A stretch of DNA of 64,000 nt, taken from Trifolium pratense. Lineage: Eukaryota > Streptophyta > Magnoliopsida > Fabales > Fabaceae. The stretch covers positions 38,118,409-38,182,408 of the forward strand of contig NC_060065.1 of the NCBI RefSeq assembly GCF_020283565.1, in the 5' to 3' direction. Made by a program: the position numbers and the translations under genes. Position 1 is the first letter of the stretch; each line of letters starts with the position of its first letter. The notes beneath the pieces are model-generated. The model saw nothing but the letters and a program-made list of their open reading frames with translations, was not told the origin of the DNA and did not search any database. Of this stretch, positions 2,887 through 64,000 are shown in pieces.

Positions 2887-4187
2887 TTATCTAATATTTG
2901 GAAACCTTTGGGAAGATGGGGCATTGTCTCTTTAGGTAAGGGATTCTATGAATTTAAATTCTCTTCGATAGAAGACATTCGAAGTGTTCGTGCAGTGACA
3001 TCATGGAGTCTTAAACCGGGATTTATCAAATTATTTGCTTGGTCTCCAAATTTCAACCCAAAAAATTTTAAGCAAACAAACTCAATGTTGGGTTCGTTTC
3101 TTGAGTCTTCCTCAAGAATACTGGCGTCCGAAGATTCTATTTTCTATTGCTAATGGCCTTGGAACACCGGTAAGTCTCGATGCTTTTACAAGTAAGAGTT
3201 TTTTTGATAGATCCTTTGGACATTTTGCAAGAGTTCTAATTGATATTGATCTGTCTGCTAAAATAAAAAATAGAATTTGGGTTGAAAGAGAAGGTTATGC
3301 TTTTCTTGTTAATGTGGAATATGAGAATCTTCCACTCTTTTATACACATTGTCAATGTATTGGTCATAGCTTTTCTTCTTGTAAATTTAATGCTAAATCG
3401 GATAAAGAGAAAATGGTACTTCCAGAAAAGCCAAGACGTAACGTCAGCAAATACTTTCCTATTCAAAAAGAGGTTTTGGCTAATGGAAAAGAGGGTCAAG
3501 TGGATCATGCTGAAGTTGTTATTATTCCTGATTCTATCGATCAATCAGCTTTGTATGGAATAAACAATGTGTCTGCCCAAAAATGTGTTGATAATAATCC
3601 TCTTTTAGGATTTGTGGATTCCAATACACTAAGAACCATTGTTGATGGGGAGGTTATTAGTGTTGATAAGTTACAACAGGAAGACATGTGTCCTCCAATG
3701 AATGGTAAAGATCATGAGAATCAGACGGATGTTGATGTTGCTACATTACTAATTTGGAGCAGCAAAATGGGGATGATGTTGCCATGGCTACTGCTCCGGA
3801 AAGGCAGAATGTTGTTCCTGGGAGGAAGAACAACACTGATTTTAATCATAGAGCTTCTGAGGAAGTCCTAGAAGATGAAATAACGCGGGCTAATACCGAT
3901 ACCGCACAACATAATGCACGAATCATGGATCCAGATATGCCAGAGTTAATCTCTGACTCGGTAGAGGAAGTAGTAGCTGAAACTCAAACTATTTTGCAAA
4001 CTATTTTGACGATATGGAGAAAATAAATCAAGCATGGGAAAGTAGAACAAGTAACAATACCGAAGAGGAAGTTCCATTCACTCCGTACGTGTCTAAGAAA
4101 ACTAAAAAACAAAGCCTACGGATTGCGCGCAGCCTTGAGAGTTATCCTAGCCGGTCTAGGGGTCCACCTCCACGATACTCTCCATGA
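2887..4187 (+). pseudogene. LINE ORF1, C-terminal part with zinc knuckle, frameshifted
   Basis: Frame 1 (2887 to about 3084) reads LSNIWKPLGRWGIVSLGKGF onward. An apparent 2-nt deletion near 3082-3084 moves it to the frame of 3035-3871, where CWVRFLSLPQEYWRPK and VEREGYAFLVNVEYENLP are recognisable, followed by the zinc knuckle (HCQCIGHSFSSC). Further shifts lead into 3754-4026 and then 4014-4187, which carries the usual VPFTPYVSKKTKKQ tail and ends at TGA 4185-4187. It is a dead copy with at least three frameshifts. Confidence 0.82.
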
Positions 4188-15100: not shown

Positions 15101-18100
15101 ATTTTTATTTGTTCTACATTTACAGTTTTGAGCAACTATGCATCAACTTAACAAATGAGAAGTTGCAACAACATTTTAATCAGGCAAGGTTATAACGATC
15201 TCAATATCGCTTTCACATCATTGTTGCTGCAAATGTATAATAATATAGAAATGGAACTGTTTCAATTTCAACAGCATGTATTCAAGATGGAGCAAGAAGA
15301 GTACACAAAGGAGGAAATTGATTGGAGCTATGTAGAATTTGTTGATAATCAGGATGTTCTTGATCTTATTGAGAAGGTAATTACTAATTAGAGACTAATC
15401 AGTGGTGGATCCACCGCCCGGCCAGCTCGGGCACTTGCCCAGGCTCTGGTAAAAAAATTTGGTATTTTAGGGGTTAGTTTAGGGCAAAACTGAGATATTT
15501 AGGGGTTGGTTTAGGGTAAAACTGAGATTGTTTTTGTTCAAACCTGAGATTTTTCAGTGCAAAACTGAGATGTTTGTTTAAACCTGAGATTTTGCCTAGG
15601 CTTTATAAATTTTCTGGCTGCGCCACTGAGACTAATTATGTATCAACATTGATTGTGCAAGACCTTGTCTACAAGATATGTTGTGAAACTATTTATTTTT
15701 CCTGCATGCAGAAACCTGGTGGAATTATTGCTCTTCTTGATGAAGCTTGGTATGTCATTTCTCACTCAAAAAGCTTTCAATACATAAAAATTTAAAAAAT
15801 ATACACATATTTTCTTAAGCAAAAAAAAAACAAAAGAAAATTTAATCATATTCTTATTTGCGCAGCATGTTCCCGAAGTCAACACACGAGACTTTTGCAC
15901 AAAAAATGTACCAGACATACAAAGCACACAAACGGTTCAGCAAGCCAAAACTTTCTCGGACAGACTTCATAGTTAACCACTATGCCGGAGATGTAAGTTG
16001 AGTAAATTCTAAATATTTTCGTCATATGTATATCCGGTTAAAAATGAAAGATGATAATTTCTTGTCACAAATACTTTTGATGTATATAGGTCACATACCA
16101 AGCAGATTATTTTCTTGATAAGAATAAAGATTATGTTGTAGCAGAACATCAAGCTCTTTTATGCGCTTCAAAGTGCACATTTGTTGCTAATCTTTTCCCT
16201 CCTTTACCCGAGGAAACATCAAAGCAATCAAAATTTTCTTCCATTGGTTCACAGTTTAAGGTAACCATGTTTTACAACAGCGATTTGTTCCTCATGTTTC
16301 GTGAAACTCTCAATCCATCATGAATTACTTATGAATCAAATTTTAATATCCAGCAACAACTGCAATCTCTCATGGAGACACTGAGCACCACAGAACCGCA
16401 TTACATAAGATGTGTGAAACCAAACACAGTTTTGCAGCCAGGAATATTTGAGAACTTCAATGTCTTAAACCAGTTAAGATGTGGGGTGAGTTTCAGTTTT
16501 CTTGTTGTCAATTATATATATGACTGTTTAGTGAATTTGAGAAGATTTTGCTTATTAACATTTACATCGTTATTGCTCTTTCAGGGAGTACTTGAGGCAA
16601 TAAGGATAAGTTGTGCCGGATATCCAACTAAAAGAACATTTGAAGAGTTCCTTGATCGATTTGGAATGCTAGCCCCTGATGTCCTTGACGGGTATATATT
16701 AGTCTAGTACTTCCTACGGACTTAAATATAAGCAAAATCGAACATGTATCTGGAATAAAGACATGTTCATTTTTTCTCATATTTAAGACCATAGTAGTAC
16801 ACAAGAAAATGAATAATGTTTATGTTTTTGTTTTAACTTTGATCGTTACCTTCAAGAAAGTGGAGTAAGAATGATGAGTCGAAGATGTAATACAAGTATT
16901 CTTATGTTCATTTGCTTGAAGCTTCACTTGAAAATAACAATAGGAATAATCTATTGTGTAGCTTATATCATAGATAAACTATATCACTCATTGTTCTACA
17001 AGATATATTTTGAACTTTGCAAACACATGATAAATAATGCTTTTTTCTGTGTAGCTCGGACGAGAAAAAGGCATCTATTGCCATATGTGATAAGATGAAC
17101 TTAAAGGGTTATCAAGTAAGTCTATAGAAGCAAAAGGCATAATTATCACCAAAAAATAATCAAGATTTATGTTATAAGTTGTAATTTATTTCCTCTAATC
17201 TTTTTTTTTTCTTTCTCTCAATCAGATGGGGAAAACAAAGGTGTTTCTTAGAGCTGGTCAGATGGCTGAATTAGATGCACGAAGAGCCGAAGTCTTAGCT
17301 AAAGCAGCTAGACTCATACAGAGACAAATCCGAACACATTTAGCACGAAAAGAGTTTATCACCATGAAAAAGGCCACAATTCGTATTCAGAAGATTTGGA
17401 GAGGTTGCATTTCTTCACAAAGAAGTAACTTGTATGTTTAGTACATGTTCGTTCTCCCGTTGCTTAACTGACTTAAGTTACTTTTCTTTACGCTTCTTAT
17501 ATCAGCAAAAATTGCTCGGGAAATCTATGAGGATATGAAGAGAGAATCAGCTTCTATCCGGATACAGAAATATGCGCGTGCACATAGAGCAAGAGTGTAT
17601 TATACATCATTACAAGCATCAGCTATTGTTATTCAATCAGGTTTGAGAGCATTAGCCGCACGAAACGAATATAGGTACAGAAGAAGAACAAAAGCTTCAA
17701 CGAAAATTCAGGTAAAGACAACTTCAGAAGGAATACATAAGACCACCATAGGTCATAAATCATGACAGATATTGAAATGTTTATCTAAATTATCATCAAT
17801 TAAAATTTAAAGAAGCTTGGGATACAAGATAGCAAAATAACAATTATTTCTACTTCTATTTTACATTGATAATTCTTAATTATTCAAATTTATTTATTCT
17901 TACAGACACAATGGAGAAAAGTACAAGCTCTTTGTAGTTACAAGCAGCAGAAGAAATCAACTCTTACTCTTCAATGTCTGTGGAGAGCTAAAGTAGCACG
18001 AAAAGAGCTCAGAAAGCTTAAAATGGCGAGTCTCGCTTCTTTGTATCATTTTCCAGAATTTTATTCCAATTCTTATAGAATATCTATAGTAACAGTTTGA

Positions 18101-43311: not shown

Positions 43312-46300
43312 ATGATGCAAGGAAGTGGAGAATTGACAGTTCCTCCAGGGTTCAGGTTCCACCCTACTGATGAGGAGCTTCTTTACTATTATCTAAGGAA
43401 GAAAGTTTCTTATGAAGCCATTGATCTTGATGTTATTAGAGAAGTTGATCTCAATAGACTTGAGCCTTGGGATCTCAAAGGTACTACACTACTTCAAATC
43501 ATCATTGTCTCATAATTTTTGTTTCTTCTAAGCTTCTCATAATCACTTATTTAGCATCATAAATACTGATAAAATCAAAGGGTTGTCTAGTAAGTATATA
43601 GAGTAGAGTACACTTTATATGATATGATTTTATGATCATAGGATAAATAAAAACTAGAAGAGTTTATTGAAAATGCACCGACTAATGTGGTCTTGCTATC
43701 GTCCAATCATATCTCACTATTGCGCCATCAACTTATTATATTACTTCTCAGTTCTCATAATATCTCAACAAAGATATAGATATGATTGAATGACAGCATA
43801 AATCATTTTGACACCGTCAATACATATCCATGAACTCAAGCTAATGTTAACTTTAACTACACTTGTAAGTTGTATGTAATATTTACCTATCAATCATTGA
43901 CACGGACACCAGACATAAAACGACATATTAATATTGATAAAAAATTACATACAATTTCTTGTTTAGGTGTTTGTCTATTAATAAAATTTGCTGATTCAAA
44001 AAAAAATATTGATAATAATTTTAAAAATATATGTAATTAAATATAATTACATGTGCCACTGGATATGTCTTTATTATGAAGAGTCTGTGTTATATATGTC
44101 ACGAATATCGAGGCCTAACTCATCCTTACAAAACCGGCTTGTAAGGTGAGGATTGTCTCATCTTTATAAACTCTTCTCAATAATCCTATCTATCCGATGT
44201 GGGACTAAATCCCACCAAGTGTTGGCCGCTAACACACCCTCTCACGCTTCAGCCCGGCCCAATGGGCCTGAAGCGTGAACGATGTCGGAAGCCCAACGAT
44301 AGACCCGATAGGCTCTGATACCATGTCACGAATATCGAGACCTAAGTGAGGATTGCCTCTTTTTATAAACTCTTCTCAAGAATCCTATCTGTCCGATGTG
44401 GGACTAAATCCCACCAAGTGTTGGCCGCTAACAATATATTGCCGGAGTTTTTCTTGTAAGATGAACTAGTTAAACACCAAAGTAAATTTCTTTTGTGTTG
44501 AATGATTTATTGCAGATAAGTGTAGGATTGGATCAGGGCCACAAAATGAATGGTATTTCTTCAGCCACAAGGACAAGAAATACCCAACAGGAACAAGAAC
44601 AAATAGAGCAACAACAGCTGGGTTTTGGAAAGCAACAGGAAGGGACAAAGCCATATATCACACCAATTCCAAAAGGATTGGAATGAGGAAAACTTTAGTC
44701 TTTTACACTGGACGTGCTCCTCATGGCCATAAAACTGATTGGATCATGCATGAGTACCGTCTTGATGATGATGATACTGCTGAAGTTCAGGTCAGAAAAT
44801 CACTATGCATTAACTTTTATGTGTTCTTGTTATTCCCTTGCGTTTGATCTACTAAAAAATAGGGGACTGGACATATTTTGTTGTACCCTGTTTGATTTGA
44901 AACTGGTTATGAGATTGGACAAATTAGGTAGCAAAGGACAGGACAAAAACAAGATTTTTTGTCCCTCACTGAACCACGGGACAACTTTTTGTCCACAGTA
45001 CAACTATAAAAAATACGAAAACACCCATTTTATTTTCGAATATAAAAATATTATCGTCATATATCTCTTCGATACAGTTTTGTCTTATCTTGTATTATCT
45101 TGTTCTGTACTGTTTTGTCCGGTCCTTGTTTTTTAATGCCCCCTTTTGGTAATTGGTACATCGATGTAACAAAATAAAATAAGTTAGGAAAATACCGGTT
45201 AGTACGAAACATAGATTGAAGAAAATAAAGAATAACACTAACCTCTACCCATGATTTCTGTCAAAAGCCAAAATTATATTGTTTTAATATTTAAAAATTA
45301 TTTGTAACTGGCAGCTTCTCTCTATCGCGTGTTTCGTTGTTTTAGTCATCCGTACTAAATAGCAACACTCAATAAGTTATTACAAGTTCATTTTACTTTT
45401 TAGAAATTAAAATATTTATATCATCAAATTTCATTGTCTTGTAGTGCTAAAAGTTTGTCCTTATAAGCTTAAGAACATATTATTCATGACTTTTTTGTCA
45501 AGTAGTTTAATAGTTATAAATTCATGTTTTTGTCAGAGTATGAACACCGATCTCTGCATATTTCTTGTAATGTACTTACCAACTGAATTATGCTCACGAG
45601 GACGTTATTCGTGCTTTCTTTAATTAAAAATAATTTGACCCCTTTTGAGTTTAGTGATTATATAGATTAGCATTATGAATTTTATTTATAAATGCATTGA
45701 ATCATATCCAATGGTGTCACATTTTATATTATTTATTTTTAAATTATGTCAAATTAAATATTCTTAAGCAATGAGATGTGATATTGAATACACATTTTTA
45801 CACTAAATTCTTTTTAGTTTTTGGTCTATTTTTTTATATTCTTAATATGTATCAAATATGTGATCTATCATCTAAGCATCTCATTATTATTTATTTTTAT
45901 TTTTCAGGAAGATGGATGGGTGGTATGTAGGGTATTCAAAAAGAAAAACACAACCAGAGGCTACCAACAAGAAATTGAAGAAGAAGATCACATAATTAAC
46001 CACATGAGATCAACAAATAATCAAAACCATTTTCTTGAGCCAAAACATCAACATCATCACCACATGCAACAATTAGGACTATATGATTACAACAATAACA
46101 CCACCTTTGATGGTACAATTCATCTACCACAATTATTCAGTCCAGAATCATCAGCACTAGCACCGCCACCACCACCGCCACCAACTTCCTTTCATAATTC
46201 ATCAATGGATATTCTTGAATGTTCTCAAAACTTGTTGAGACTCACAACAACTACTCCTAATCTCATGCAACAACATCAAGGAGAAAGGTTGAATATCAAT

Positions 46301-46495
46301 GGTGGTGATTGGTCATTCTTGGATAAACTACTTGCATCTCATAATGGAATGGATCATAATCTAAGAAACAAATTATGTAACACTTCTAATAATCATCAAG
46401 CTGCAGCTGCTTCTGTTGGATCAACTTCTGCTCAGAAATTTCCATTTCATTACCTTGGTTGTGAGCCTCATGATATTATGAAATTTTCAAAGTAA
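43312..46495 (+). CDS. SMB: NAC transcription factor, SOMBRERO-type, 343 aa
   Basis: Three coding exons, 43312-43480, 44516-44790 and 45908-46495 (1032 nt, in frame, GT-AG introns). The NAC domain starts with [20 protein letters not shown] and runs to [14 protein letters not shown] (about residues 10-162), including [20 protein letters not shown] and the DNA-contact region [10 protein letters not shown]. The C-terminal part has short motifs shared with Arabidopsis SOMBRERO (ANAC033): [27 protein letters not shown] and a final FPFHYLG...KFSK. SMB acts in the nucleus of root cap cells, where it drives maturation, wall changes and programmed cell death; I infer the same role here. Other oddities are a His run, a seven-Pro run and Asn-rich stretches. 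A second ATG (43315) is equally possible as start. Intron 1 holds a TRIM. Confidence 0.95.
44097..44433 (-). mobile_element. Complete TRIM retrotransposon in NAC intron 1, antisense
   Basis: It is flanked by the 5-bp duplication ATATA (44092-44096 and 44434-44438). On the minus strand: 5' LTR 44433-44334 (100 bp), PBS TGGTATCAGAGCC (44333-44321, initiator tRNA-Met type) directly after the LTR, a short internal region with inverted CGCTTCA / TGAAGCG words, polypurine tract GTGAGAGGGTG (44245-44235), and 3' LTR 44234-44097 (138 bp). Both LTRs begin TGTTAGCGGCC and end ATTCGTGACA. The 5' LTR lacks about 38 bp present in the 3' LTR. There is no coding capacity, as usual for TRIMs. Confidence 0.95.
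44860..45145. repeat. Possible MITE in NAC intron 2
   Basis: AAAATAGGGGACTGGACA near the left and TGTCCGGTCCTTG near the right are roughly inverted, with GGACAAA / TTTTGTCC words between. The ends are not clean. Confidence 0.35.
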
Positions 46496-50644: not shown

Positions 50645-51450
50645 TGTGAAAATTATGAATAAGAAACATTTACTATTTCCAACAATAATAATGATAATTA
50701 ATCTTAAATGCATATATAAATATTCAAGCTATTCATGACAATAGTTATTTATATTTTTATTCCTATTCCTATCTCAATTATCATTCATAACAGCCAGAGT
50801 TAATGACTATTGTTTCTTCATCTTCACATTAGAAAATCAATCTCTCAAGTTTGTAACCGCAGTAGTTATAAAATATATTTAAGCCTCTTAATATTTATTG
50901 CCCATAAAAAGGAAAAAAAAAAACTCTGAACCAGTCTCTCCTAATATTTAAGCCTCTTAATATTGATTTTGCTGTGTCTGTTTTTTATAAGTATACAATT
51001 GTGTATAATTTTCAAACTAAGAAACTGTTAATGGGTTAATTATTGAAGCCATTTAACAACACTAGTGGTTTCATTGGATGTACTAAATGATTTCAATAAC
51101 TTCATGAAAACATTAGTCTTGTTAAATGGTTTCATTATGTTGTTTCTTAAATAGTTTAGCATTGCAACATACTTTTGTCTGTAGCATTATGTTGTTTCTC
51201 ATATTGTGTTTCAGTTTTACTGTGCTACATGGTTAATAGTTTTTCCCTTTAGCTTTGTTTATATGGAATGACATAAATCAATGTATAGTGAATGTGTTCT
51301 CTGAGTAGTGTTGTTCTGCCATGGGTTGGATTTTTTGTTGTGCAGTATTGATTATCTTATTGATTGAAATTTATTTGACTTGTGGGATTTCATTGTGTTT
51401 CATTTTCATTTGTTATATTTTTGGTTTTTTTGATGTGGGAATGATTTTCA
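50379..51450. other. Intergenic DNA with (AAT)n
   Basis: Contains an AAT microsatellite (50590-50644). 50870-50970 has a repeated 'aagcctcttaatatt' phrase. No gene seen. Confidence 0.5.
50590..50644. repeat. (AAT)n microsatellite
   Basis: About 18 AAT units without interruption. Confidence 0.95.
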
Positions 51451-51750
51451 TTGATGCAGATTGAAAAATCTAAGGTGGTAGATTTTCTATCAACCTTCAG
51501 CCTTGGACTATCACAGTCGGATGACTCAAAAGCTTCATCATCGCGTAGTTTTAGACAACTGAGGGGGGAAATGGAAGAGGCAAAAGGAAATGAAAAGAAA
51601 AGAAGCAACATAACAAAACTGAGGGGGAAGGAAGTTTGGATGATGATGAAAATGTAAAGGATAAAAAGCTGAAGAAAGGTACTGAACCTGAGCAGAGATT
51701 GAGACACAAAATGAATATTCCTAAGGAGGAGTGTCATTTTTATTTAAATT
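51451..51750 (+). pseudogene. Possible orphan exon or gene fragment
   Basis: An acceptor-like TTGATGCAG (ending 51459) is followed by an open stretch reading IEKSKVVDFLSTFSLGLSQS and a Lys/Glu-rich region. A one-base shift near 51630 would extend it as DDDENVKDKKLKKGTEPEQR to a stop near 51752. No start, promoter or partner exons were found. I do not recognise a family. Confidence 0.3.
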
Positions 51751-53969
51751 AAATTGTACAGAATGAGTGCCATTTTTCTTTAAATTAAATTGTATACCAT
51801 AACAAAAGCATGGATGTTAGAGAAAGGGAAATTAAAGTATGAAGAAAATTTATTTTTCTTTTGTGTACCACTCTTGATTTTGGTTTTCAGACTTATTATT
51901 TTCAATATTATAACCTTAGTTTTGAATATTATTAGTCTATGATGGATTTGTACACTAAAACCATTTATCAAGAATAATGGTTTCAGTAAGTTATACACTG
52001 AAACCATTACTCTTGTCAAATGGTTTCAGTTACATATACACTTTTGATAAAAGGTTTAGGAACTTTCATTAGTTGAAACCTACTTAAGGATGGTCTCCCA
52101 ACATAAGAAAGATAAGGATGGTCTTCGAATCAACCCATTTGAAGGACGTGCATTTGAATCCAACACATCACCTCTCTCTCGAAACATGGGTTCATGGGTT
52201 GATTCGAAGACACTTCTCCTCTCTCCGAATCCAACACATTTTAATCTTTCTCAACTTAATTATAAATGTATTTGAACGACATTAACTATTAAGCAGAACC
52301 ATTTTGAAAAAACCTCTCGCCACTTTCGAAATTTAATTTTTCTTTTGTGTGCCTCAGTCGATGTTATTTTTGATATGCAAACCATTGAAATTCATAAACA
52401 ATACACGATATTTATCGGTTGAGGTAAAACATATTAACTAATCAATGTTATTGATTAGTAGGCAAAAATGATATTTAGAAATGATTAATAGAACTCAAAT
52501 ATCTATCATTTACGTCACATGTTATTAATGGCGTGTCAACTTTATTTCTCTCGTAAAAAATCACCCTAAGTTTATCGTGGTGGTGCAATTGTTAAAGAAA
52601 TCATCAAAATTCCTTCTCTCGATAAGGTTCAAACCCTAGTTTTTCTCTTCTACAAGTTCTCACATTCTGTTTAAACATATACTGTATTGAATTGTAACCA
52701 CCAACCAGTTTACTACAATATCGCCCACTTACCTATGTCAACTTCATGTACTAAAAATTGCTAGACAATAATTTTTGCCTTTACTATCTTCAATTGAAAA
52801 AATGTAACAACAATAGCAAGGAACTAAGGATGAAAAACCTTTGTCATCATCATTTCATGAATATGCAATGCCTCTACATCAACAAACCCGCGCCCGCCCC
52901 TCCTTGTTACCGTGATTTCTAAGAAGCTACAAAATCAAGCTTCTCCATTACCATCGTTTTCACAAACGAACTGCACATCCAAACAAATGCTTAAGAATTT
53001 TTTTGGACACTTGTCCGACATGTGTTGTAGGAGTGCCATACAAGTGTCTAAGTGTTAGACACCGACATGCCTAATCATAGAAGTATCCATACTTCATAGG
53101 TTTTGCATTTTGTTAACGAGAGACGCACCAGTTCAGTTCAATTTTGAGACCAGTAGTTAGCAGCACATAAATGAGCATTGTAGCATCCATTTTCAATCAT
53201 CATTCAGAAAAGAATCAACAATTACACAAAATAATCTTTTGGTATTTGAATTGAATCATTGAATCAAACAACAGTGTGAAAAAAACAATACACCATAATC
53301 TCTCATTTTGATATTCTCCATTTTCTATTCCTATTCCCCATTACAATTTGTGCAACAGGAGAACAAGTCCTTAACTTCTCAACCCAAAATTTCACATCCT
53401 CTTTTCCCAATTTCAAACTCATCATCAAAACAACACCAAACAGAAACCCTAAAAACCAATTTTTTATGGCTTTATTTCTCAACAACAAAGAAATTGAAGA
53501 AATTCCAATCATACAGAACAATGAGCTCAAAAACAGATCCAATTCTGAAATTCTCCATGACCACAAACCTGCAACACAGATAATGACAAACAGTTTAAGT
53601 TTTTCATTGAACCTCCCTTATCTCTCATATGTTCCATTGAAAAGATAATGACAAAAAGTTTGTCAATGTTCCAGTTTGCAAAGTTGAATCTCATGTGAAC
53701 AGTTGATAGAATACAGTTCAAAATGAATCATAATACAAGAAATTAAAGGCCGAAACAGTGATTATTGAAGTAGAATGTCAGTGAGTTGTATCTTGCTCCC
53801 TACTCAGTACCCACCCCAAGTAATGAAGTTCAAACAAAGCTCCTCATTACTCCCTGTAGACACACTACTATTAGACAAAAATAGTATGGTATAGTAAGAT
53901 ATCAATGGTTAGGACATTCTCTACTTTGAAGATATCAATATGCCATATGTTCTCTTTCCACACCTTTTG
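51751..53969. other. Intergenic DNA downstream of the LRR-metacaspase gene
   Basis: 51955-52035 holds 'aaaccatt...ggtttcag' repeats like those at 7783-8190. 52105-52230 has an inverted pair (CTTCGAATCAACCCATTTGA / TTGATTCGAAGAC). 52575-52660 has a weak SINE-like B box (aggttcaaaccct). 53010-53075 has inverted GTGTCTAAGTGTTAGACACC words. 53700-53969 is probably the gene's 3' UTR. Confidence 0.45.
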
Positions 53970-56900
53970 CTACCATCGTAGGAACTTAGCATGTTTCTTG
54001 TCTTGTGGGCAGTAGAATGGAAGGTCTTCTGGGCAGTAGACTGGAAGACCATCATATCCCATTATAACTAAAGCACACACAGCCTTCTTAAGTTGTCTAT
54101 AAACCTTGATGTTGGTTGAAGTTTCTCCTTCGAGTATTCCACTGAGAACTTCATAATATATATGTCCATCGAAGGTGACTTCATGAGATTCACTAAGTGG
54201 AAAGACTACCACGTTTACGCTTTGTATTGCACCTTTCGTAAAATTCCCGGCAAAGCAAGTGTTGATCATCACTGTTAGTGTCGCTTCCAGCGGCACTTTC
54301 GGCATGAATTTTGTAGACAAAAAATGATCCGTTATAAATTTAGAATCGGAAGTCCAAATTCCAAATTTATCAACTTCAAACTCAATGGAATGTCCCGCTA
54401 TATACACAAAAAGTATATCTTGTGCATTAGCTTCTTCAACTAACAATGTTAGTTGTCTTTGAATTGCCACTTTTGTTGGATGCGTATACTTGTTGGTGTC
54501 ACACAGTATCGTGATATCTTGGTCTATGAAATTGAAGTTTTCCATTAAAATTGTTTTCATCCCTTCGACTTCATCTAAGGTATGCAACAGTCTATCTTCT
54601 CCAAACTTGTAATACATCACCCCAATTAAAACTGCCTTTTTTCTTGGCACAGCTGGTGTGTTTTCAGCACTTCTTCCTCCACTACTTTCTGCCTTGGTTG
54701 TCTTTCGTTTTTTACGACGACCTTGCTGCATAGCCTTTAGCATGAGTAACTTTGTATGGCTTGATCTCTTGTTCAAATACATTCTAACTTGATCATCTGT
54801 AATAGCATAATACATGCAGGTGAGACGACTATGTGAAATGTATCTTAGCAGGATAGAAATGGACTAAAAGAAGACATGCAGGTGAGACGACTATGTAAAA
54901 TGTATATTAGCAGGATATATACTTAGGCGCATAGCTAAATTTGTACTCCTACCAAGCACCCTCCTAAAGTCTTAGCAGAGTTGTAAAGATAAGATGTCTA
55001 AGTGCATGGTCATTTATTTTATCATTGAATCAGCATATAAAATGAATTACCTTCGGCTGCATAAACAGGATGAGACACCAGTGTAATATGACTGCTTCCA
55101 AAGCTCCTCAGCCTCAACAGCAATTTATTAAAATGAATTAGAATGAAGAAGGCGAATCCTGTTTCCAATAATAAGGTGAATCCTTTTGCCAATAATGTTC
55201 CTCCGTCAACCATAAAAGCTATTCCTCCACGACCCATGGGGATCTTCTCATGTTTTCTCACAAAGTTTTCATTGGCATTTGCCTGAGTTGTGTGTGGGCA
55301 ACTGCTACTGTGCTCAACTATAACATATTCAAAAGGAAATTCCCAGAGAGGAGAGTCACCCAATGGATATAACTTACTCCCTCCAATCCTATATCAAGTA
55401 GAGTATGAATGTTCATTATATATATCATATCTAAGAAAGAAATTGCAGGTGATCAAACTGGTAATACTTATTATCACTAACCATAAGTTTGGTATGGTCT
55501 GGACATTTTCTGGAAGAATACCACTAAACAGATTCTGTTGAATGTTCCTGATAAAATAGAAAAATTAGTAAATGTCTGAGCAAAAACTGAAATAAAAATC
55601 CTACAACTATTACATATAGCACCTGAGTGCAAGATATTTAGTTAAGGTAAAGCTTGATTATTAGCTGGGGCTAAGCAAAAGTAACAAATTGATGTCAATT
55701 AAGGTAGGTCTTATAAGACTCCAATGCTAGCTGCCATTAGTTCAAGCATAAAAGAAACTGTGCTATAAACTAAGGCTAATGTAATGCACTTGGGTGTTTT
55801 ATTCTCCAGCTACTTCCCCTTCAGCATGAATACAAAATAGACTTTACTAGTCTTATGGAAGTAACATGCTTTACATGATCAAAAAATATATTTCACAGGT
55901 AACCCTTGCAAGTACATATACACATAGTTGTTCAAGGAATTCTTAAGCAACACTCAAAGCTATCTAGCTTTTGGCTTATTTTTATTTCTAGTATAGTTTC
56001 TATTATTACTTAGTCCATACTACTTTTGCCTTTGTCAATTATTAAAATTGGTGAGTTTTAAATTGGCTTCATCTTAGTCAGTTATTAAATGCATGCAGAG
56101 AGGCTAAAGTTTCAGTCGAAAACATACATTTTTTCCAGGTTATCTAAGCCAGTGAACACATTGCCAACGAGTCCAAACAAGAAATTGTGGCTTAAATTCC
56201 TACAAGAGAAGAAGCGATAATTTCACAGCCACTTTAGAGATGAATCACTATCTCATACTAACAAAAATGAAAATGTACTAAAATCAAAAGTATTTGACTC
56301 ACAGATGCCTTAGTTTCTTCGTTGTTGATAAAGAATGGGAGATATTTTTGCTCAAATAGATGCAGCAAGCCATGTTCCTGGAATAAAATTGAGTCGTCAG
56401 AAAAAACCCATTGCTCAAGACACAAGCACTCATAGAATGACTCATGAAGTAATATAACAAACAGAACACTAGGCTTACATATGAGTGGAATTGGGAAGCA
56501 GACTGTATGGTATTGGTATCACACCCACTATGTTGTGAGAGCTGACATCACTAATTAAATAAACAAGAATGTATAACTAAGTAAATAACATATGTTACAG
56601 TAAACCAGAAAAACTTAAAACAGCATAGTGGCTTCATCTTAGTCAATTATTAAATGCATGCAGAGATGCTAAAGTTTCATAGAAAACAAACATTTCTTCC
56701 AGGTTATCTAAGCCAGTGAACACATTGCCAATGGGTCCAAATAAGAAAGTGTGACTTAAATTCCTGCAAGAGAAGAAGGGATTATTTCACAGCCATTTTA
56801 GAGGAATCACTATATCATACTAAAAAAATGAGAATGTACTAAAATCAAAAGTATTTGACTCACAGATGCCTTAGTTTCTTCGTTGTTGATAATGACTGAC

Positions 56901-57812
56901 GGATATTTTTGCACAAATAGATGCAGCAAGCCATGTTCCTGAATAAAATTGAGTCATCAGAAAAACCAACTGCTCAAGACACAAGCACACATAGAATCGG
57001 CTCATTAAGTAATATATATAACAAGCAGAACAATAGCCTTACATATGTGTGGCATTGGGAGGCAGACGGAATGGTATTGGTATCACACCCACTATGTTGT
57101 TAGAGCAGACATCACTAAATAAACCAGAATAACTAAGTAAATCACATATATGTTACAGTAAACCAGAAATCGTTGTATTTATATGTATAACTACGTAAAT
57201 GACACATAGTGGCAAAATTAGTGTATGTAACTTGTACCAAAACACTGAATAAAATCACAATATCTCAGGAGTAAGAAAATAGAAGTTCAGTGCACGAAAT
57301 TTTCCTTCCATTACTACCTATGTAGAGTGCATACATTGATTCATGCATGAAACTTACAGAAGTAAATCTGATTATGAAAAGTTCCATTCCTTCCACACAA
57401 TAATCAAACTTACAGATGTTGCAAGTTTTGTAGATTGTGGAGCAAGCCTCCAACTCCTTTCCATCCTTGGAGCACCGGTGAGTAGTTCAAGGTCTTGTGT
57501 AGGTCCTTCACTGCTAATTAAAAAGAAATTAATTACAACCTTGTTTTAGGAACTAATTCAAATTGAACGGTGGATTCTAAGAAAATCATGTATAGAAGAA
57601 ATTAATTCCATGGGAGGAATCTGCCAAAGGATTAGTTCCTAAAACAAGGTTGTAATTAATTCCATGTATGAAAAAGAAATTAATTACAACCTTGTTTTAG
57701 GAACATTATAGAAGAAATTAAAATCAGTTCAAAGGAACATACCATGTGAGGAATCTGCCAAAGAAATCAAAATCACGAAGAAGATGAAACGTGCAATGTA
57801 ACCAGACGCCAT
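53970..57812 (-). CDS. SRF-like LRR ectodomain + TM + metacaspase-like domain fusion, 612 aa
   Basis: Eleven coding exons on the minus strand: 57812-57743, 57513-57414, 57114-57043, 56938-56864, 56763-56692, 56550-56479, 56377-56303, 56199-56128, 55547-55482, 55388-55051, 54796-53970. They sum to 1839 nt, in frame, all GT-AG. Residues 1-19 are a signal peptide (hydrophobic FIFFVILISLA). Residues 24-225 are LRRs, one per 72-75-nt phase-2 exon, with wording of the STRUBBELIG receptor family (LPPNATHM, GNVFTGLDNLE, IPNLW). About 278-309 is the membrane segment after the family-typical GRGGIAFMVDGGTLLA. Instead of a kinase, exon 11 encodes a basic linker (GRRKKRKTTK) and a p20 caspase-like domain: KKAVLIGVMYYKF (390-402), the catalytic His in YIAGHS (H473) and Cys in NTCFAG (C518). 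The usual GHG and DxCHSG are altered, so activity is uncertain. The topology puts the LRRs outside and the protease-like domain in the cytosol. Exons 3-5 and 6-8 are a tandem duplication. Transcript support is needed to exclude two neighbouring genes. Confidence 0.8.
56064..57169 (-). repeat. Tandem duplication of three LRR exons
   Basis: 56064-56613 and 56629-57169 are near-identical copies with an offset of about 565 bp, introns included. Each carries a trio of exons of 72, 75 and 72 nt, all phase 2, so the extra trio keeps the frame. The copies differ by scattered substitutions and small indels. Confidence 0.9.
57523..57763. repeat. Direct and inverted repeats in intron 1, with an exon-1 copy
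   Basis: AAATTAATTACAACCTTG followed by TTTTAGGAAC occurs at 57523-57552 and 57673-57704, and inverted at 57632-57660. The exon-1 end sequence GAGGAATCTGCCAAAG (57748-57763) also occurs inside intron 1 at about 57614-57629. Confidence 0.8.
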
Positions 57813-58340
57813 ATCTGCAAATGACTGAAACCAAAATTCAAAAAAGGAAAAATAAATAAAATTAGGAACCCTAACCTATAACCAGAGTAATCACAACTCT
57901 TAATTCAAAATGCAAATATGAAATACTATATATTATTAACTGGAATTCAAGATTATGATTAGAAAAGAAGGGGGAAAAAATGTAAGCGAAGAATATCAAA
58001 ATCAAATTCAATGAACTTAGTTCTTCCTTGGCGAAGTAGCGATTGAAATGAATTATGATTCTGAGATCGAGTGTATTCTGAGATCAATTACCTTCGTCAA
58101 ACAAATTCCATATCAAGAACACTACATAGATCAATTTTCTAGCAATCAACGAAAAGAGTGTTACCTGATGATTCTGCGATAAAGGTTGGGAATCGCAAAT
58201 GCAAATTCAAACTTGTGGTACACGTTTGGAAAGATCTTGGAAGGTTAAAAGCAAACAAGATAGAATGAAGGAGAGAGTGAGAGCGCAAACTTCAAAATTC
58301 AATTTGAGCAGTGGAGGGAGGAATAATGCGCTAGTTAGTT
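57813..58340 (-). promoter_or_regulatory. 5' UTR, leader intron and promoter region of the LRR-metacaspase gene
   Basis: On the minus strand an acceptor TTTGCAG lies 2 bases before the ATG. A donor CATCAG|GTAACA at about 58164 follows a CT-rich leader exon (about 58164-58300). This suggests a leader intron of about 350 bp. It is inferred from signals only. Confidence 0.5.
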
Positions 58341-59771
58341 ACTAACTATATGCTAATGTGTCTTTTAGAATGGTCCAACTAGACTTCTCCACCAATGGTA
58401 CAATACTTTTAGCCTTTGATTTAATATTTAAAATATCCAAAGGCTGTGATGCAAGAATGTACACTTGCTTTTTTGGTGACTACTATAAACAAAACAAAAC
58501 AAAACAAAACAAAAACTTTTGTATATAGAATTCACAAGTCACAATTCAACGAAAAGGATTTTTTGGGATTTGGATTCGGTGCAGTTGGACTGCATGCAGT
58601 CAGTGCATATGGACCGTCCGATTGAAATCAGATTTTATGACTAATTTTAGTTGTTTATAAAAAGCTTATATTCTAGATCATCCGATCTAAATTTGAAGGT
58701 GATTAATGGGCCGACTGCACTGCAGTCATTGTTTCCCGACTGCACACAACCCAAATCCGATTTTTTGACATAGTTTCCTGCTGTAGTAAATTTGAGCCGT
58801 TCATTTATGATCAGACGGTACATATTACACACAGTTTTATATCCAAAATAATACATTGGAAAGTTTCTTTCACTAAAGTTTCACGACTTTTGGAAATACT
58901 AAGGTTTAAAGATTAAAAAAAAATGAAGTAGAGATGAAGTCATGAGGTGTGTTTGGTTGTGAGAAGAAAGTGAAAAGAGAGAAATTGGTGAGAGAGAGTC
59001 TGAGAAGAGAGAAATAGGTGAGAAATATAGTAGATTTGATGCATCGATTGGAATAAGAGAAAATACAAATAAATAGAAGAGAGAGAAAAGTGTGGTTGAT
59101 TTTTAAAAAGACAAAAATAACCTTGTATTTTATTTTAATATAATTTAGTCATTAATTTATCACCAACACAACAACGTTACTATTCACGTTTTTGGCAATA
59201 GATGAATACAAGGAGTCAAGGACAAAATTGGAACACAGTAACTGTTTTTTATTCTCTCGCCTGTTTGTTTCTCCTCATAAGAGAGAAGACTCTAAAATTA
59301 GTGGGTCCCATGTATTTTAACTCTCTCCCCTCTTTCTCATCACAACCAAACAAGAGAAAAAGTGATATTCTCTTCAATCTCTCTCTCTCTCTCTTCAAAT
59401 TCTCTCTCTTCTTTTGATATTCATTCTTTGATATATCATGTATTTGCATAGTTATGCTTTATATTTAGGGTTAATGTAATGGGCTTTGAGACTTATGAGG
59501 TGTATTAGATTGACATTTTATAAGATTGTCCTTGCTTTTAAGATTCTTTAAAATATATTTTATAATAATCATGATTTTTCAATTTGGATTTTGATGGAAT
59601 TATGGCAAATATCTTTTATTATAATGATGATTTTTCAATTTTTATTTTGAAAGATTTTATGAATTTTTAAAATTTGAAAGGATTCATGATTTTTTGTATT
59701 TTATAAAAGTCGTGACGAAACATTCATTTAATGTCACATCAAAATCAACTTAGGAGATTGATTGAAATTAG
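58341..59771. other. Intergenic DNA with one MITE-like element
   Basis: An AAAAC microsatellite (58493-58515) is followed by a MITE-like inverted pair at about 58557-58767 (GGATTTGGATTCGGTGCAGT against CTGCACACAACCCAAATCC). 58920-59450 is purine/pyrimidine-skewed with GAGAGA and CTCTCT tracts and no gene. Confidence 0.5.
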
Positions 59772-61092
59772 GTGAATTCTTCGGTACACGTATTATGTGG
59801 ACGTGTACTGGTACACGTATTATGTGGAATTATGGCAAGCATTTAATACAAATTTTATTTCTTTATTAAGTTTTTTTATTTTAAACACTATTTTTTAATA
59901 TTTGCACATGTATCCTTCACATAATATTAATGATAATCTCAACTGAAGCAAATATGGAAGATTTGTTCCAAAATTAAACTAAAAAAACTGGACTTTTTTT
60001 TTTGAACCAAACAAACTTACTGCATTTCATTAAATATCAAAAGTTCAATACATGAAGGAATAATCTCAAATCTACGGAAACCAGTCCACGAATTGGCCGC
60101 CCTAGCTAATGTGTGAGCAACCGAATTCACTTGTCTCCTAATAAACTTAACTTCAAAGTTCACACATGATAACATAACAAGGATAATTTCATTAACGATC
60201 GAAAGAAACTCTGAATTGCCACGTCGTTTGGTACGAATAGCATCAACCAACACTTGAGAGTCACTTTCAAACTGAACCCTTTCAAGACCTCTACTCTTAG
60301 CTTCATTCATTGCTTGCAATAGTGTCCATGCTTCACCCTCCTCTGTTGATAAGGTCAGTTGCTGCCACTGCGTAATAAAAAAACTGGACTTAAACATATT
60401 TATTAGTTTAACAGAAAGTAATAAAACAAAAAATTATGCTTGACGAAAAATAATGATATTGCGGACTGTGAAGAGGAAAAACAAGGTTTTGAATACTTAC
60501 TTAAAGGTCCGTGCGGCGTGAATGGATATACGCGAGAAAGAAGCATATGGCAATGAGAACTCACAGCGGCAACACGACAGTGGTTCTGCGTGAAAACAGC
60601 ACCCCTTTACAAAGTACCCCTTTAACAAGAGAGAAGACCAATTTCCCAATTAAACCCTAAAAATAGAAGATTAAACAACAGAGAAGAGAAGAAAATCCTA
60701 AAAATCAATTTTTCGGAGTGAAAGAAAAACGACGCCGTGGAGAGAGGCGGCGCCGCCGGAATTAGGAAAATGAAGACCAGAGAAGAGAATTGTCTCTGCA
60801 CGAGAGAGAGAAATAAAGTTTCAGAAGAAAGAGTGGCTTATAAAAAAAAAAAGAAAGAGTTTTGAATTTTTAACAAATTACTGAAACATTATTTCAAGAT
60901 TTAAAAATTACAATTATTCCTATGGTGTCATTTTGAAATTTTTGTAAATTAAAAGAGTAATTTACAAAACTTATATTTAAATAAAGTTTGAAATGACATG
61001 TTAAACTATCATTACACGTGGACAAATTAAAATTATACAACTTAGCGGTGTACCGGTACACGTCCACATAATATGTGTACCGGAGTGTTCAC
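59772..61092. mobile_element. Inverted-repeat-bounded element, 1.3 kb, with gene-like leader
   Basis: GTGAATTCTTCGGTACACGT (59772) and the reverse complement of the right end, GTGAACACTCCGGTACACAT (61092), match. The similarity continues over about 45 bp (TATTATGTGGACGTGTAC, then GGTACAC). Inside, on the minus strand (about 60860-60500), is a CT-rich GC-skewed leader, then ATG with MLLSRVYPFTPHGPL and a strong GTAAGT donor, which looks like the first exon of a captured gene. A LINE fragment is nested at 59996-60375. Family and target duplication are unresolved. Confidence 0.6.
59996..60375 (-). mobile_element. 5'-truncated LINE insertion (RNase H end)
   Basis: The minus strand encodes GEAWTLLQAMNEAKSRGLER, then FESDSQVLVDAI and NSVAHTLARAA, the RNase H-like domain at the end of some plant LINE ORF2s. 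It is followed by a stop and a poly(A) seen as T at 59994-60003. A perfect 16-bp duplication (TAAAAAAACTGGACTT) flanks it (59980-59995 and 60376-60391), so this is a target-primed insertion of only 380 bp. The frame is still open, suggesting a recent event. Confidence 0.88.
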
Positions 61093-61284
61093 ATTTTCAA
61101 TAATAGTTCTTAATAAGCACTAAATCCCTCCAACCCAGCACCTCTTCAAAAGTTCTAAATGGGTCCCGTCAATAACTCCATCACAATAATTTTTTTTTTT
61201 TACTAATCAATAATTTATTATTTAATAATTCATATTTTATACTATTAAATTAATTGGATTATAAAATTACAAAATTAATATGTA

Positions 61285-61408
61285 CTCCCTCCGTCCCAAA
61301 ATATAAGGGAAAATTGGTCAACTAAAGTTGATGTATCTAGTCCAAATTTTTAACCAAATACATCAACTTTCTTTGACCAATTTTCCCTTATATTTTGGGA
61401 CAGAGTAG
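61285..61408. mobile_element. Stowaway MITE, 124 bp
   Basis: CTCCCTCCGTCCCAAAATAT at the left and ATATTTTGGGACAGAGTAG at the right form the inverted ends, with TA on both sides. The inner part (GGGAAAATTGGTCAA...) is also inverted, so the whole element folds. Confidence 0.88.
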
Positions 61409-62301
61409 TACTATTTTTTTATAATTCAAAATAATAATTAAAATTCGAAAATTAATTTAAAATAATATTGCCAAATTTAAAAATTACATAATTAAAAAAT
61501 AATTTAAAATAACATTACATAATTTTAAAAATAACTAATTTTGTTGATCGTCATGCCCAAAACATTGTCAAATATGCTCGATAAGATCATGTTGAAGTTG
61601 AAGATGAGTTCGTCTATCTTAAATTTGTGCTATTCTTTGAAGGTATGGTGCGAGATTTGAATGAGAACCATTATGTGTGTCACTTGTTGAAACATCATTG
61701 TTGAGATGTTGATCATAAGAATAATTAATTAAATGACCAGCGTACGTGTGTCGTTCATCTTCCATAATCATGTTATGCAATATATGGTGTATGTTGGTAT
61801 TGTATGAATTAATACTAGCCAAGCATCAACGCCCTTTGGTTTGGTATTAATTTTTTTTTGCAACAAATTTATGTTTGAAGTACTCCTATACTACTATATT
61901 AATTAATTATTTAATTATTAATAATATCTAAAAGTAAGCGGGTCCCGTAAAAAAATATATTTTAATGAAAACTAAGATGGGCCCCAGAGAAGAGAGAAAA
62001 TTCTTATTTAAGAATCGGTTCCTATTAAGAATTCAAAAGTGTACTGCTCTAATGATAGATCTTATTAAGAACTGATTCTTAATAGTATAAGATCCACCAT
62101 TGGAGATGGTCTAAGTTTCTAGGAAGAGGTAAAGTTGCATTTGTCTGGTGGGTTTACCCGAATGGCACATGATAGATTAACTTATTAAATTATAGCCGAA
62201 AGATATAATTAAAATCTATGGTCGACAATTGGTGTAACAATTTTAATACCAAGGATATTAAAGTAATTTTAAATTTTTTCGGTGGTGACCATTGCCCAGC
62301 C
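61409..62301. other. AT-rich intergenic DNA
   Basis: 61620-61822 (-) is a short frame (HNMIMEDERHTYAGHLINYS) of the kind found near harbinger-type transposase genes, possibly a scrap of one; it is too short to assign. Confidence 0.4.
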
Positions 62302-62325
62302 TAGGCCCGTACCAACGCATGCACT

Positions 62326-62837
62326 TAGGGATGACAATGGGTGCCCATGAGTGAAGGTTTTGCAATCCACGTCAAAAATAAACACCCAAACACAAAGGTT
62401 ATTTGGGTGGCAAATCAAAACTCACGCTCACGCCAATTGAGTTCGGGCTTTTCCACCCAAACCAAAAACCCATAGTTAAAACACGCATAATTAATTAATT
62501 ACCTACCAAAACTCGGCCCGAATTATTTTTGATAAAATGACAAAGTACAAATACAAACAAATGACAAAATAACATAGTTTAACATAATTTGCAAATGACA
62601 AAATACAATACAAAATATCAAAGTTCAACATAATATATATACATAGATTTAATTAGATAATTTCACATATATTTGAATGGGTGCATGGATTTCGGGTGTG
62701 AGTTTGAGTGTTTCCAAACCCACGCCCATAGTTTCGGGTGTCATCCAAACTCAAACTCAGTTAACTCGAGTTTCGCCCATTGACTTGAGTTTGAGTTCGG
62801 GTGGGCCTGTCGAGTTTGAATTTTCCTGTCATCTCTA
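62326..62837. mobile_element. hAT-like MITE, 512 bp
   Basis: The ends TAGGGATGACA and TGTCATCTCTA are inverted with one mismatch. The 8-bp flanks CATGCACT and CCTACACT match at 6 of 8. The interior has inverted ACTCGAGTTT / AAACTCAA words. The second copy of the surrounding duplication lacks the element. Confidence 0.78.
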
Positions 62838-63009
62838 CCTACACTTGGACTAATTTCAACTACATGCATTAATTTTCGTGTTTTTTTTTTCTTTCTCTTT
62901 CTCTCCTACCAAACAAGTCCATAAGATTTGCTCTGAATTTGAATTATTTATTATTATTATTAGGCTTAAATATGCAAAAGGTCCCTGTACTTACGGGTCA
63001 TCTGAGTTT

Positions 63010-63215
63010 TAGTCCCTGCATTTGGAAAAAAAACAAAACACACGCAATCAAACCGCCGGTTTCGGAAAACCGTCGGTTCAGCGGTTTTTCTGGTTTTTAG
63101 TGGTTCATTCCGGTTTAACTACATGTCCGGTCCAACATTTAAACCAGACCGGAGACCCATCCGGTTCACGGTTTGACCGGTCCAACCGGCCGATTTGGTC
63201 TGGTTTTTAAAACAC
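63010..63215. repeat. CCGGTT-rich repeat segment
   Basis: Many copies of CGGTT / AACCGG in both orientations (for example TTTGACCGGTCCAACCGG) suggest the end of a MITE of the same style as 9058-9747. The ends were not resolved. Confidence 0.45.
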
Positions 63216-63250
63216 TGAGCCCGTACCAACGCATGGACTAATATTTTTTA

Positions 63251-63365
63251 TTTTTTTTGGTCTCGGAAGAAGTGATAATCCACTAAAATTAAACTCACAA
63301 ATAATTGTGAAATTCCGGGTTCGAACCCGGGTCACGGCGTCCGGCCTAACAATTTTAGCATTTTT
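63251..63365 (-). mobile_element. SINE, 5'-truncated, minus strand
   Basis: The minus strand reads ATTGTTAGGCCGGACGCCGT, GGGTTCGAACCCGG (B box) and TTTTAGTGGATTATCACTTC, and ends in A8 (63251-63258). It is the same family as 47120-47259. The A-box part is missing. Confidence 0.75.
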
Positions 63366-63505
63366 GCGGGTCTAATTATATAATTATATGCATTAATTTT
63401 TATTGACTCCTACCAAACAAGTCCATAAGATTTGCTCTGAATTTGAAATATTTATTATTTTTTTAAAATTGAAGTTTAAATTAGGTGTGTGTATTATGAG
63501 GCAGC

Positions 63506-64000
63506 CTATAAATAATCTAAAAAAGCGTGCGCTATTCAGATCTTCTTCACCAAAGTTTTCATCATCTCCCCTTCGTCAAACCCTAACCTTGCCGTAATAA
63601 AAAAAAACCCCTAACCTTCCCATCCACCCAAACCCAGCCACCGCGCCGCCGCTCCTCCAGTGACAACCACAGCCACCGTCTCCTCTCTCTCTCTCTCCGA
63701 AACTAAAGGGAATAAAAGAGAAAATCAAAATTCTAGGTTAATTGTTCAATTTTTTCCTTTTCTAATTGGTAATTTCTTCTTCTTTTATTCATTATTTATT
63801 GTCCAATTTGTTGTTATTGTTGTTGGAACACTGAACAGGAATAAGGACGTTGTTGTTGATGATGTTGTTGTTGTTGATGATTCAAACTAAATAAGGATTT
63901 TGTTGTTTTTTTTACGGTAAAAGATTTTAATGATATTTCTAGAATTATATCCTATATTCTCTTAATTTTATTTGGAGGAAAAATGATATGCTCTACTATA
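63506..64000 (+). promoter_or_regulatory. Promoter and 5' leader of a gene running off the right edge
   Basis: A good TATA box CTATAAATA (63506-63514) is followed 60-100 bp on by telo-box motifs AAACCCTAACC (63578-63588) and CCCCTAACC (63608-63616), then a CT-rich, GC-richer leader (63620-63700) and a possible donor TCTAG|GTTAAT near 63736. Telo boxes near the start site are typical of plant translation and ribosomal protein genes. No coding start is assigned within the window. Confidence 0.5.

Follow-up and report, generated by a model that had tools for sequence, protein, structure and literature searches.

Receptors of the STRUBBELIG-receptor family (SRF, or LRR-V) are described as carrying a SUB domain of 59-60 residues ahead of six leucine-rich repeats (LRRs) (PMC1855328). 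StLRPK1, a member of the family, has been assigned a role in immunity (PMC6255708) and the kinase activity of STRUBBELIG has been reported to be non-essential (PMC2628281), so that it is not far-fetched for an SRF frame to lack a kinase. Type II metacaspases are described with an extended p20-p10 linker that contains a cleavage site, and the pocket of TbMCA2 with residues Cys92, Asp95, Ser156 and Asp211 (both in PMC4357240). Here we describe a gene of red clover (Trifolium pratense) in which an SRF2-like ectodomain and transmembrane region are followed by a metacaspase-like exon. It lies in a window of 64,000 nucleotides, the whole stretch of DNA analysed (NC_060065.1, positions 38,118,409 to 38,182,408), and coordinates below are those of the window. 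We lean towards reading it as a red clover-specific chimera, in which a metacaspase-like exon took the place of the kinase exons of an SRF2 paralog, and whose product would span the membrane once.

The gene runs along the minus strand from 57812 to 53970 and is split into 11 exons. An earlier sequence-only reading had proposed that the exons join in frame at phase-compatible junctions, and this was borne out: all 10 introns are GT..AG, and the frame of 611 codons contains no in-frame stop. The length then given, 1839 nt or 612 aa, is rightly a multiple of three but should be 1836 nt including the stop, or 611 aa; a NAGNAG acceptor at exon 2 fits the 3-base surplus. The order of parts in that reading, an SRF-type ectodomain and a transmembrane region followed by a caspase p20-like domain, is found in one public gene model, the protein of which, 'STRUBBELIG-RECEPTOR FAMILY 2-like [Trifolium pratense]' (P0001), is 100% identical to the product over 611 aa. 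The same reading had suggested an HMM search and had placed the caspase-like domain where a kinase normally follows. Scanned with Pfam, the whole product contains LRR_8 (5.5e-13), LRR_1 (6.6e-9) and Peptidase_C14 (4.4e-7) above the curated cut-offs, and no kinase family. Perfect repeats of 27-37 nt, both inverted and direct, occur in intron 1 (57517-57704) together with a copy of exon 1's final part, and a 24-nt tandem duplication in exon 11 (54000-54047) repeats LP(V/F)YCP(E/Q)D near the C-terminus.

As judged by similarity, the N-terminal half of the chimera is derived from an SRF2 paralog and has been altered. Protein searches scored candidates sharing common short words with the query at 0.55-1.75 times its length (7996 for the whole product). 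Below P0001, most matches were SRF2 receptor kinases from legumes and further dicots, LRR proteins of other kinds came last, and P0001 was the sole carrier of PF00656 (both among the 120 of 202 matches listed). Similarity to the red clover SRF2 gene (L128, C7:22.11 Mb) in the LRR and juxtamembrane exons extends to the DNA level, so the resemblance is not due to chance. Exon boundaries, LRR and juxtamembrane sequence and the position of the transmembrane segment are common to the chimera, the red clover SRF2 (P0015/P0012) and other legume SRF2 kinases. In contrast to SRF2, the chimera has no kinase and lacks residues 54-84 of P0015 (31 residues, including the cysteine cap GDPC..C) and residues 24-30 (7 residues, near the signal peptide), which leaves the SUB domain, within limits that we placed ourselves, incomplete. 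The six-LRR pattern is also broken: three LRR exons (3-5) are duplicated, and SRF2 residues 173-214, corresponding to two LRR exons, have no match anywhere in the window. Compared with nine SRF2s, the chimera has inserts of 2, 1 and 8 residues, the last being charged and within the transmembrane segment, which is single by hydropathy only (Kyte-Doolittle [KD] value 1.75). The earlier description of a STRUBBELIG-type receptor therefore holds for descent and fails for an intact ectodomain, from which the cysteine cap is missing along with two LRR exons. These losses, the internal LRR duplication, the 8-residue transmembrane insert and the five near-identical copies described below had gone unremarked in that reading.

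Sequence profiles and a predicted structure support a caspase (C14) fold for the p20 part of exon 11. In exon 11 alone, PF00656 was found at 8.4e-8, above its cut-off; comparison with the PDB gave metacaspase-4 at 3.2e-11, and a profile of bacterial metacaspases scored 50.8 bits. For this profile 96 relatives were found and 80 kept, of which 32 remained after a redundancy filter and the removal of one that was too short. An AlphaFold2 (AF2) model made with 31 of these 32 sequences (a shorter one omitted) had a mean predicted local distance difference test (pLDDT) value of 65.7, with the p20 strands and helices mostly at 86-95. With this model as query, Foldseek placed AtMC9, AtMC4 and fungal metacaspases on top with a probability of 1.0 and gave 32 matches at E 0.001 or better, although template modelling scores were low (0.30-0.56 for the top matches, 0.24-0.56 among the rows listed). 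Several results tell against the assignment. The agreement in fold is partly built in, because the AF2 alignment consisted of bacterial metacaspases, and a structure predicted from the single sequence was unusable (pLDDT 35). The p10 part was poor in the AF2 model, and the p10 segment alone had no match in the PDB.

Within this fold the putative catalytic dyad is retained. The candidates earlier numbered His473 and Cys518 correspond to His472 and Cys517 of the 611-aa product; Cys517 aligns with the Cys mutated in 6w8r, and Asp463, Gly471, His472, Cys517, Gly520 and Gly547 (exon residues 127, 135, 136, 181, 184 and 211) are invariant in an alignment of exon 11 with bacterial metacaspases (A2). 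By our motif mapping, the counterparts of TbMCA2 Cys92, Asp95, Ser156 and Asp211 are Thr409, Glu412, Ala470 and Asn515. All four are changed, and the acidic S1 pocket for Arg/Lys is not kept by the motif alignment (Asp to Glu412, Asp to Asn515). The Gly after the catalytic His is replaced by Ser473, the acidic loop that follows His is shorter by about 10 residues, with the D..I...D spacing still alignable, and the p10 QTSA motif is gone. Exon 11 has no p20-p10 linker, which is present in the canonical type II genes of red clover. From these alignments, exon 11 is a divergent, compact metacaspase-like domain with the His-Cys dyad kept.

The sequence-only reading had seen in this arrangement a link between surface sensing and a death-type protease or pseudo-protease. 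The dyad is there, but a working death-type protease looks unlikely given the changed pocket residues. We regard as very improbable a working receptor protease, in which ligand binding outside would switch a caspase-type protease inside: the domain order, the kept dyad and the basic residues after the transmembrane segment would suit it, whereas the pocket, the shortened loop, the missing QTSA motif and the lost cysteine cap argue otherwise. Because both the cysteine cap and the pocket are altered, a pseudo-caspase or a functionless chimera is favoured over an active, Arg/Lys-cutting receptor protease. Any function would likeliest be to bind metacaspase partners or substrates, as a membrane-tethered pseudo-caspase or as a protease of weak and altered activity. 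It is rather doubtful that a single-pass LRR-transmembrane-caspase protein from up to five loci, with its dyad-bearing domain tethered under the plasma membrane, serves as a receptor-linked protease or metacaspase decoy.

The donor at the juxtamembrane exon lies at the same place and in the same phase 1 in both genes (AAAG/GTGAGT in SRF2, GAAG/GTAATT in exon 10 of the chimera), and downstream of it exon 11 stands in place of SRF2's kinase exons. Conservation of donor site and phase together with this exchange suggests that the kinase exons were replaced by exon 11 within the juxtamembrane intron. An old SRF2 paralog would have lost its kinase exons, and an intronless metacaspase-like domain would have been gained downstream of the juxtamembrane exon. 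One transcript would then run through exons 10 and 11, and the predicted product would be a single-pass membrane protein with reduced LRRs on the outer face and the caspase fold facing the cytosol. The evidence for the exon 10-11 splice itself is the gene model. Alternatively, annotation may have merged two neighbours, a decaying kinase-less SRF2 paralog and a divergent metacaspase-like gene that starts in exon 11. We judge this less likely, though it accounts for a number of observations that speak against one continuous gene. A separate caspase-like gene could start at any of three in-frame ATGs of exon 11 (54782, 54743 and 54731), a similar basic leader precedes KKAVLVG in one divergent metacaspase-like relative, an AATAAA was spotted by eye in intron 10, and phase agreement at a single junction is expected by chance in 1 of 3 cases. 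Two separate genes fit poorly with the exon 10 donor retained at the SRF2 site and phase, with the joined exons of the public model, and with the stop that unspliced read-through of exon 10 meets within a few codons.

Relatives of the caspase part were sought in the red clover assembly (413,558,439 bases). Exon 11 gave 27 matches at E 1 or better. After the copies of the chimera, the best were type II genes at C7:16.12 and C7:38.52 Mb (42.5 and 41.1 bits); weaker matches led to divergent genes, and five loci were read. Identities to the type II genes at C7:16.12, C7:38.52 and C6:13.36 Mb numbered 54, 48 and 40 over 152, 152 and 145 aligned columns. These genes, like AtMC4 and AtMC9, share p20 similarity and the His-Cys dyad with exon 11. 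The two best-scoring type II genes are interrupted by the conserved intron after ..LIT and encode a long linker, whereas exon 11 has neither, and it differs from type II metacaspases in its changed pocket, its basic leader and an only weakly recognisable p10 (shuffle p 0.0042 against C7:38.52; 0.098 and 0.094 against the other two).

The divergent metacaspase-like genes are located at C7:6.63, C7:4.15, C1:9.75 (two) and C2:23.58 Mb. An 11-row tree, with long branches and hand-trimmed pieces, grouped exon 11 with 3 of 4 divergent genes at a support of 80/96 (not starred) and left the C2:23.58 gene outside. Compared directly with exon 11, however, the divergent genes score 29.5 bits or less, below the type II genes, so the two kinds of evidence are not in full agreement. 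Likenesses to exon 11 are the shortened loop of the C7 genes, the compact form and CF..NF motif at C1:9.75, and the intron site that is read through at C7:4.15; unlike exon 11, the divergent C7 genes have no catalytic His. In these C7 genes, L129 (C7:6626000-6627500) and L132 (C7:4144700-4145900), the GH motif is AYG; L132 is a single 400-aa open frame spanning the whole stretch read. GHG is kept in L130 and L133 (C1:9.747-9.750 Mb), which have a DACF motif and no linker, and in L131 (C2:23.58 Mb), near which four similar matches extend up to C2:23.63 Mb. Pfam C14 passes the cut-off in L130 and L131, falls short of it in L129 and is unrecognised in L132. No LRRs were found beside the divergent genes in the five stretches read (1.1-1.5 kb each). 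Medicago genes of this kind go under names such as 'ICE-like protease (caspase) p20 domain', a phrase that matched no paper in one open-access library.

Other searches for relatives returned less. A first scan of genome contigs covered 73 stretches and gave none. A PF00656 search of the genome listed 22 matches and is incomplete, since the chimera's own five copies are missing from the list. A protein search with exon 11 alone scored 370 candidates, none of which matched at 1e-3, and one with residues 337-611 gave only P0001 among 2554; in both, the word filter probably missed canonical metacaspases. Homology between the exon 11 leader and the SRF juxtamembrane region was unsupported in each of four comparisons (p 0.33-0.95). 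Recent origin of exon 11 by retrocopying of a canonical type II gene was rejected for want of convincing DNA similarity (best E 0.015). With this last result and the intronless divergent gene at C7:4.15, retrocopying at the time of fusion need not be invoked, though it may have occurred.

In a tree of 40 ectodomain rows, the chimera falls within the papilionoid SRF2s at an open fork, on a long branch of 0.54. A position as sister to the Trifolium SRF2s alone was rejected by approximately unbiased (AU) tests (p 0.0016 and 0.0022), whereas one as sister to the Trifolium plus pea/Lathyrus SRF2s was not (AU p 0.30). Against the SRF2 gene L128, the LRR exons (88 codons) have a non-synonymous divergence (dN) of 0.125 and a synonymous divergence (dS) of 0.532, a ratio of 0.24 by NG86 or 0.34 by YN00; dN/dS is 0.52 for exon 10 and 0.39 for all 191 codons (0.44 by YN00). 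Introns diverge by 0.43-0.74 (Jukes-Cantor), in alignments that are just 53-68% identical. A Ks peak of 0.81-0.83, computed by a different method, is given for the more recent genome duplication (PMC13103476). Set beside that peak, these divergences indicate that the SRF2 paralog is old and was under constraint for much of its lifetime, a period that includes SRF2's own branch; the date of the fusion is separate from this.

Constraint in more recent times is weak at best, as judged from the internal duplication. Exons 3-5 are identical to exons 6-8 at 65/72, 69/75 and 66/72 positions, and dN/dS between the duplicates, from only 19 substitutions, is close to neutral (0.78 by NG86, 0.85-0.91 by three other methods). 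Between the duplicate units, gap counts taken by eye give no indel in the exons and 6 in the two intron pairs (Fisher p 0.014 or 0.010). When decay of the ectodomain was simulated from the present sequence with substitutions only, 0.35% of 2000 runs were free of stops at 0.2 substitutions per site, a result that we count in favour of the chimera.

The chimera lies in a block that is present five times: in the window, at C7:58.73, at C7:58.51 (partial, only from 54027 on), at C2:30.97 and at C2:30.996 Mb. Identity is 99.2-99.96% for pieces longer than 2.5 kb within the window and falls to as low as 98.3% for those outside it; between the window and the C7:58.73 copy there are 4 differences in 10,314 aligned bases. 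On the far side of the block, pieces of about 2 kb are repeated at 95-96% identity. The open reading frame is intact in four of the five copies, including that in the window, from which the other three differ by 1-2 residues. At C7:58.51 the copy ends after residue 593, and at C2:30.97 intron 5 is longer by about 4.67 kb. With 10.4% duplicated BUSCOs reported for the assembly (PMC9650271), haplotype duplication might explain some of the copies, but the presence of copies on different chromosomes argues against this for all of them.

These data bear on whether the gene makes a useful protein at all. The chimera, transcribed or not, may be a pseudogene, its copies carried along by the recent amplification of the block, an account that is compatible with the gene history favoured here and that we hold to be possible but not probable. 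The lost cysteine cap, the lost and duplicated LRR exons, the charged transmembrane insert, the near-neutral duplicates, the truncated copy and the high identity of the block all fit decay. Against the reading favoured here, both substitutions seen among the copies, which lie within 1-2 residues of the window's if the end of the truncated one is set aside, are non-synonymous. A pseudogene is harder to reconcile with four copies free of stops and frameshifts, with indels confined to the introns of the duplicate units, and with the long-term constraint on the LRR exons. Most likely, the locus is a young, lineage-specific chimera, possibly encoding a membrane-tethered pseudo-caspase.

If made as one protein, the product would be a plant surface-receptor frame bearing a caspase-fold domain, and would exemplify the exchange of a receptor domain at the juxtamembrane intron. 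The sequence-only reading knew of no described plant protein with the LRR-transmembrane-caspase order; our limited protein searches likewise gave no second one among the matches listed, and no description of the order was found in the titles and abstract starts of papers listed from one open-access library. The finding also draws attention to a group of divergent metacaspase-like genes in red clover, of which no description was found. Coordinates are collected in the table.

Table. Features of the chimeric gene and its repeated block, in window coordinates
Feature	Position	Strand	Remarks
Repeated block, part inside window	50973..64000		Homology continues to window-equivalent 66310
Exon 1	57743..57812	-	Includes the start codon and a segment resembling a signal peptide; hydropathy peaks at residues 1-19 (KD 1.98)
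Exon 2	57414..57510	-	Unites pieces separate in SRF2; 31 residues including GDPC..C absent
Exon 3	57043..57114	-	LRR, duplicate unit 1
Exon 4	56864..56938	-	LRR, duplicate unit 1
Exon 5	56692..56763	-	LRR, duplicate unit 1
Exon 6	56479..56550	-	LRR, duplicate of exon 3
Exon 7	56303..56377	-	LRR, duplicate of exon 4
Exon 8	56128..56199	-	LRR, duplicate of exon 5
Exon 9	55482..55547	-	Final LRR
Exon 10	55051..55388	-	Juxtamembrane region and transmembrane segment; donor at SRF2's phase-1 site
Hydrophobic transmembrane core, residues 290-308	55136..55192	-	KD 1.75, compared with 2.04 in SRF2
Exon 11	53970..54796	-	Basic leader and metacaspase-like domain; PF00656, PDB metacaspase-4, AF2, Foldseek
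Codon of His472 (candidate catalytic His)	54390..54392	-	Alignments
Codon of Cys517 (candidate catalytic Cys)	54255..54257	-	Alignments
In-frame ATG, Met359	54729..54731	-	One of three ahead of the caspase fold

Directly downstream of the chimera, a 104-aa open frame with hydrophobic stretches (53303-53617, minus strand) is matched neither in Pfam, at 0.01, nor in NCBIfam. Elsewhere in the window are a retroelement-like piece with RVT_3 (6.1e-18) at 60020-60433 on the minus strand and, on the plus strand, another with DUF4283 and a zinc knuckle below cut-off (2999-3868), a myosin motor fragment (9.6e-20) at 16324-16704, and a NAC transcription factor gene at 44506-46495, with its NAM domain (3e-27) at 44506-44844.

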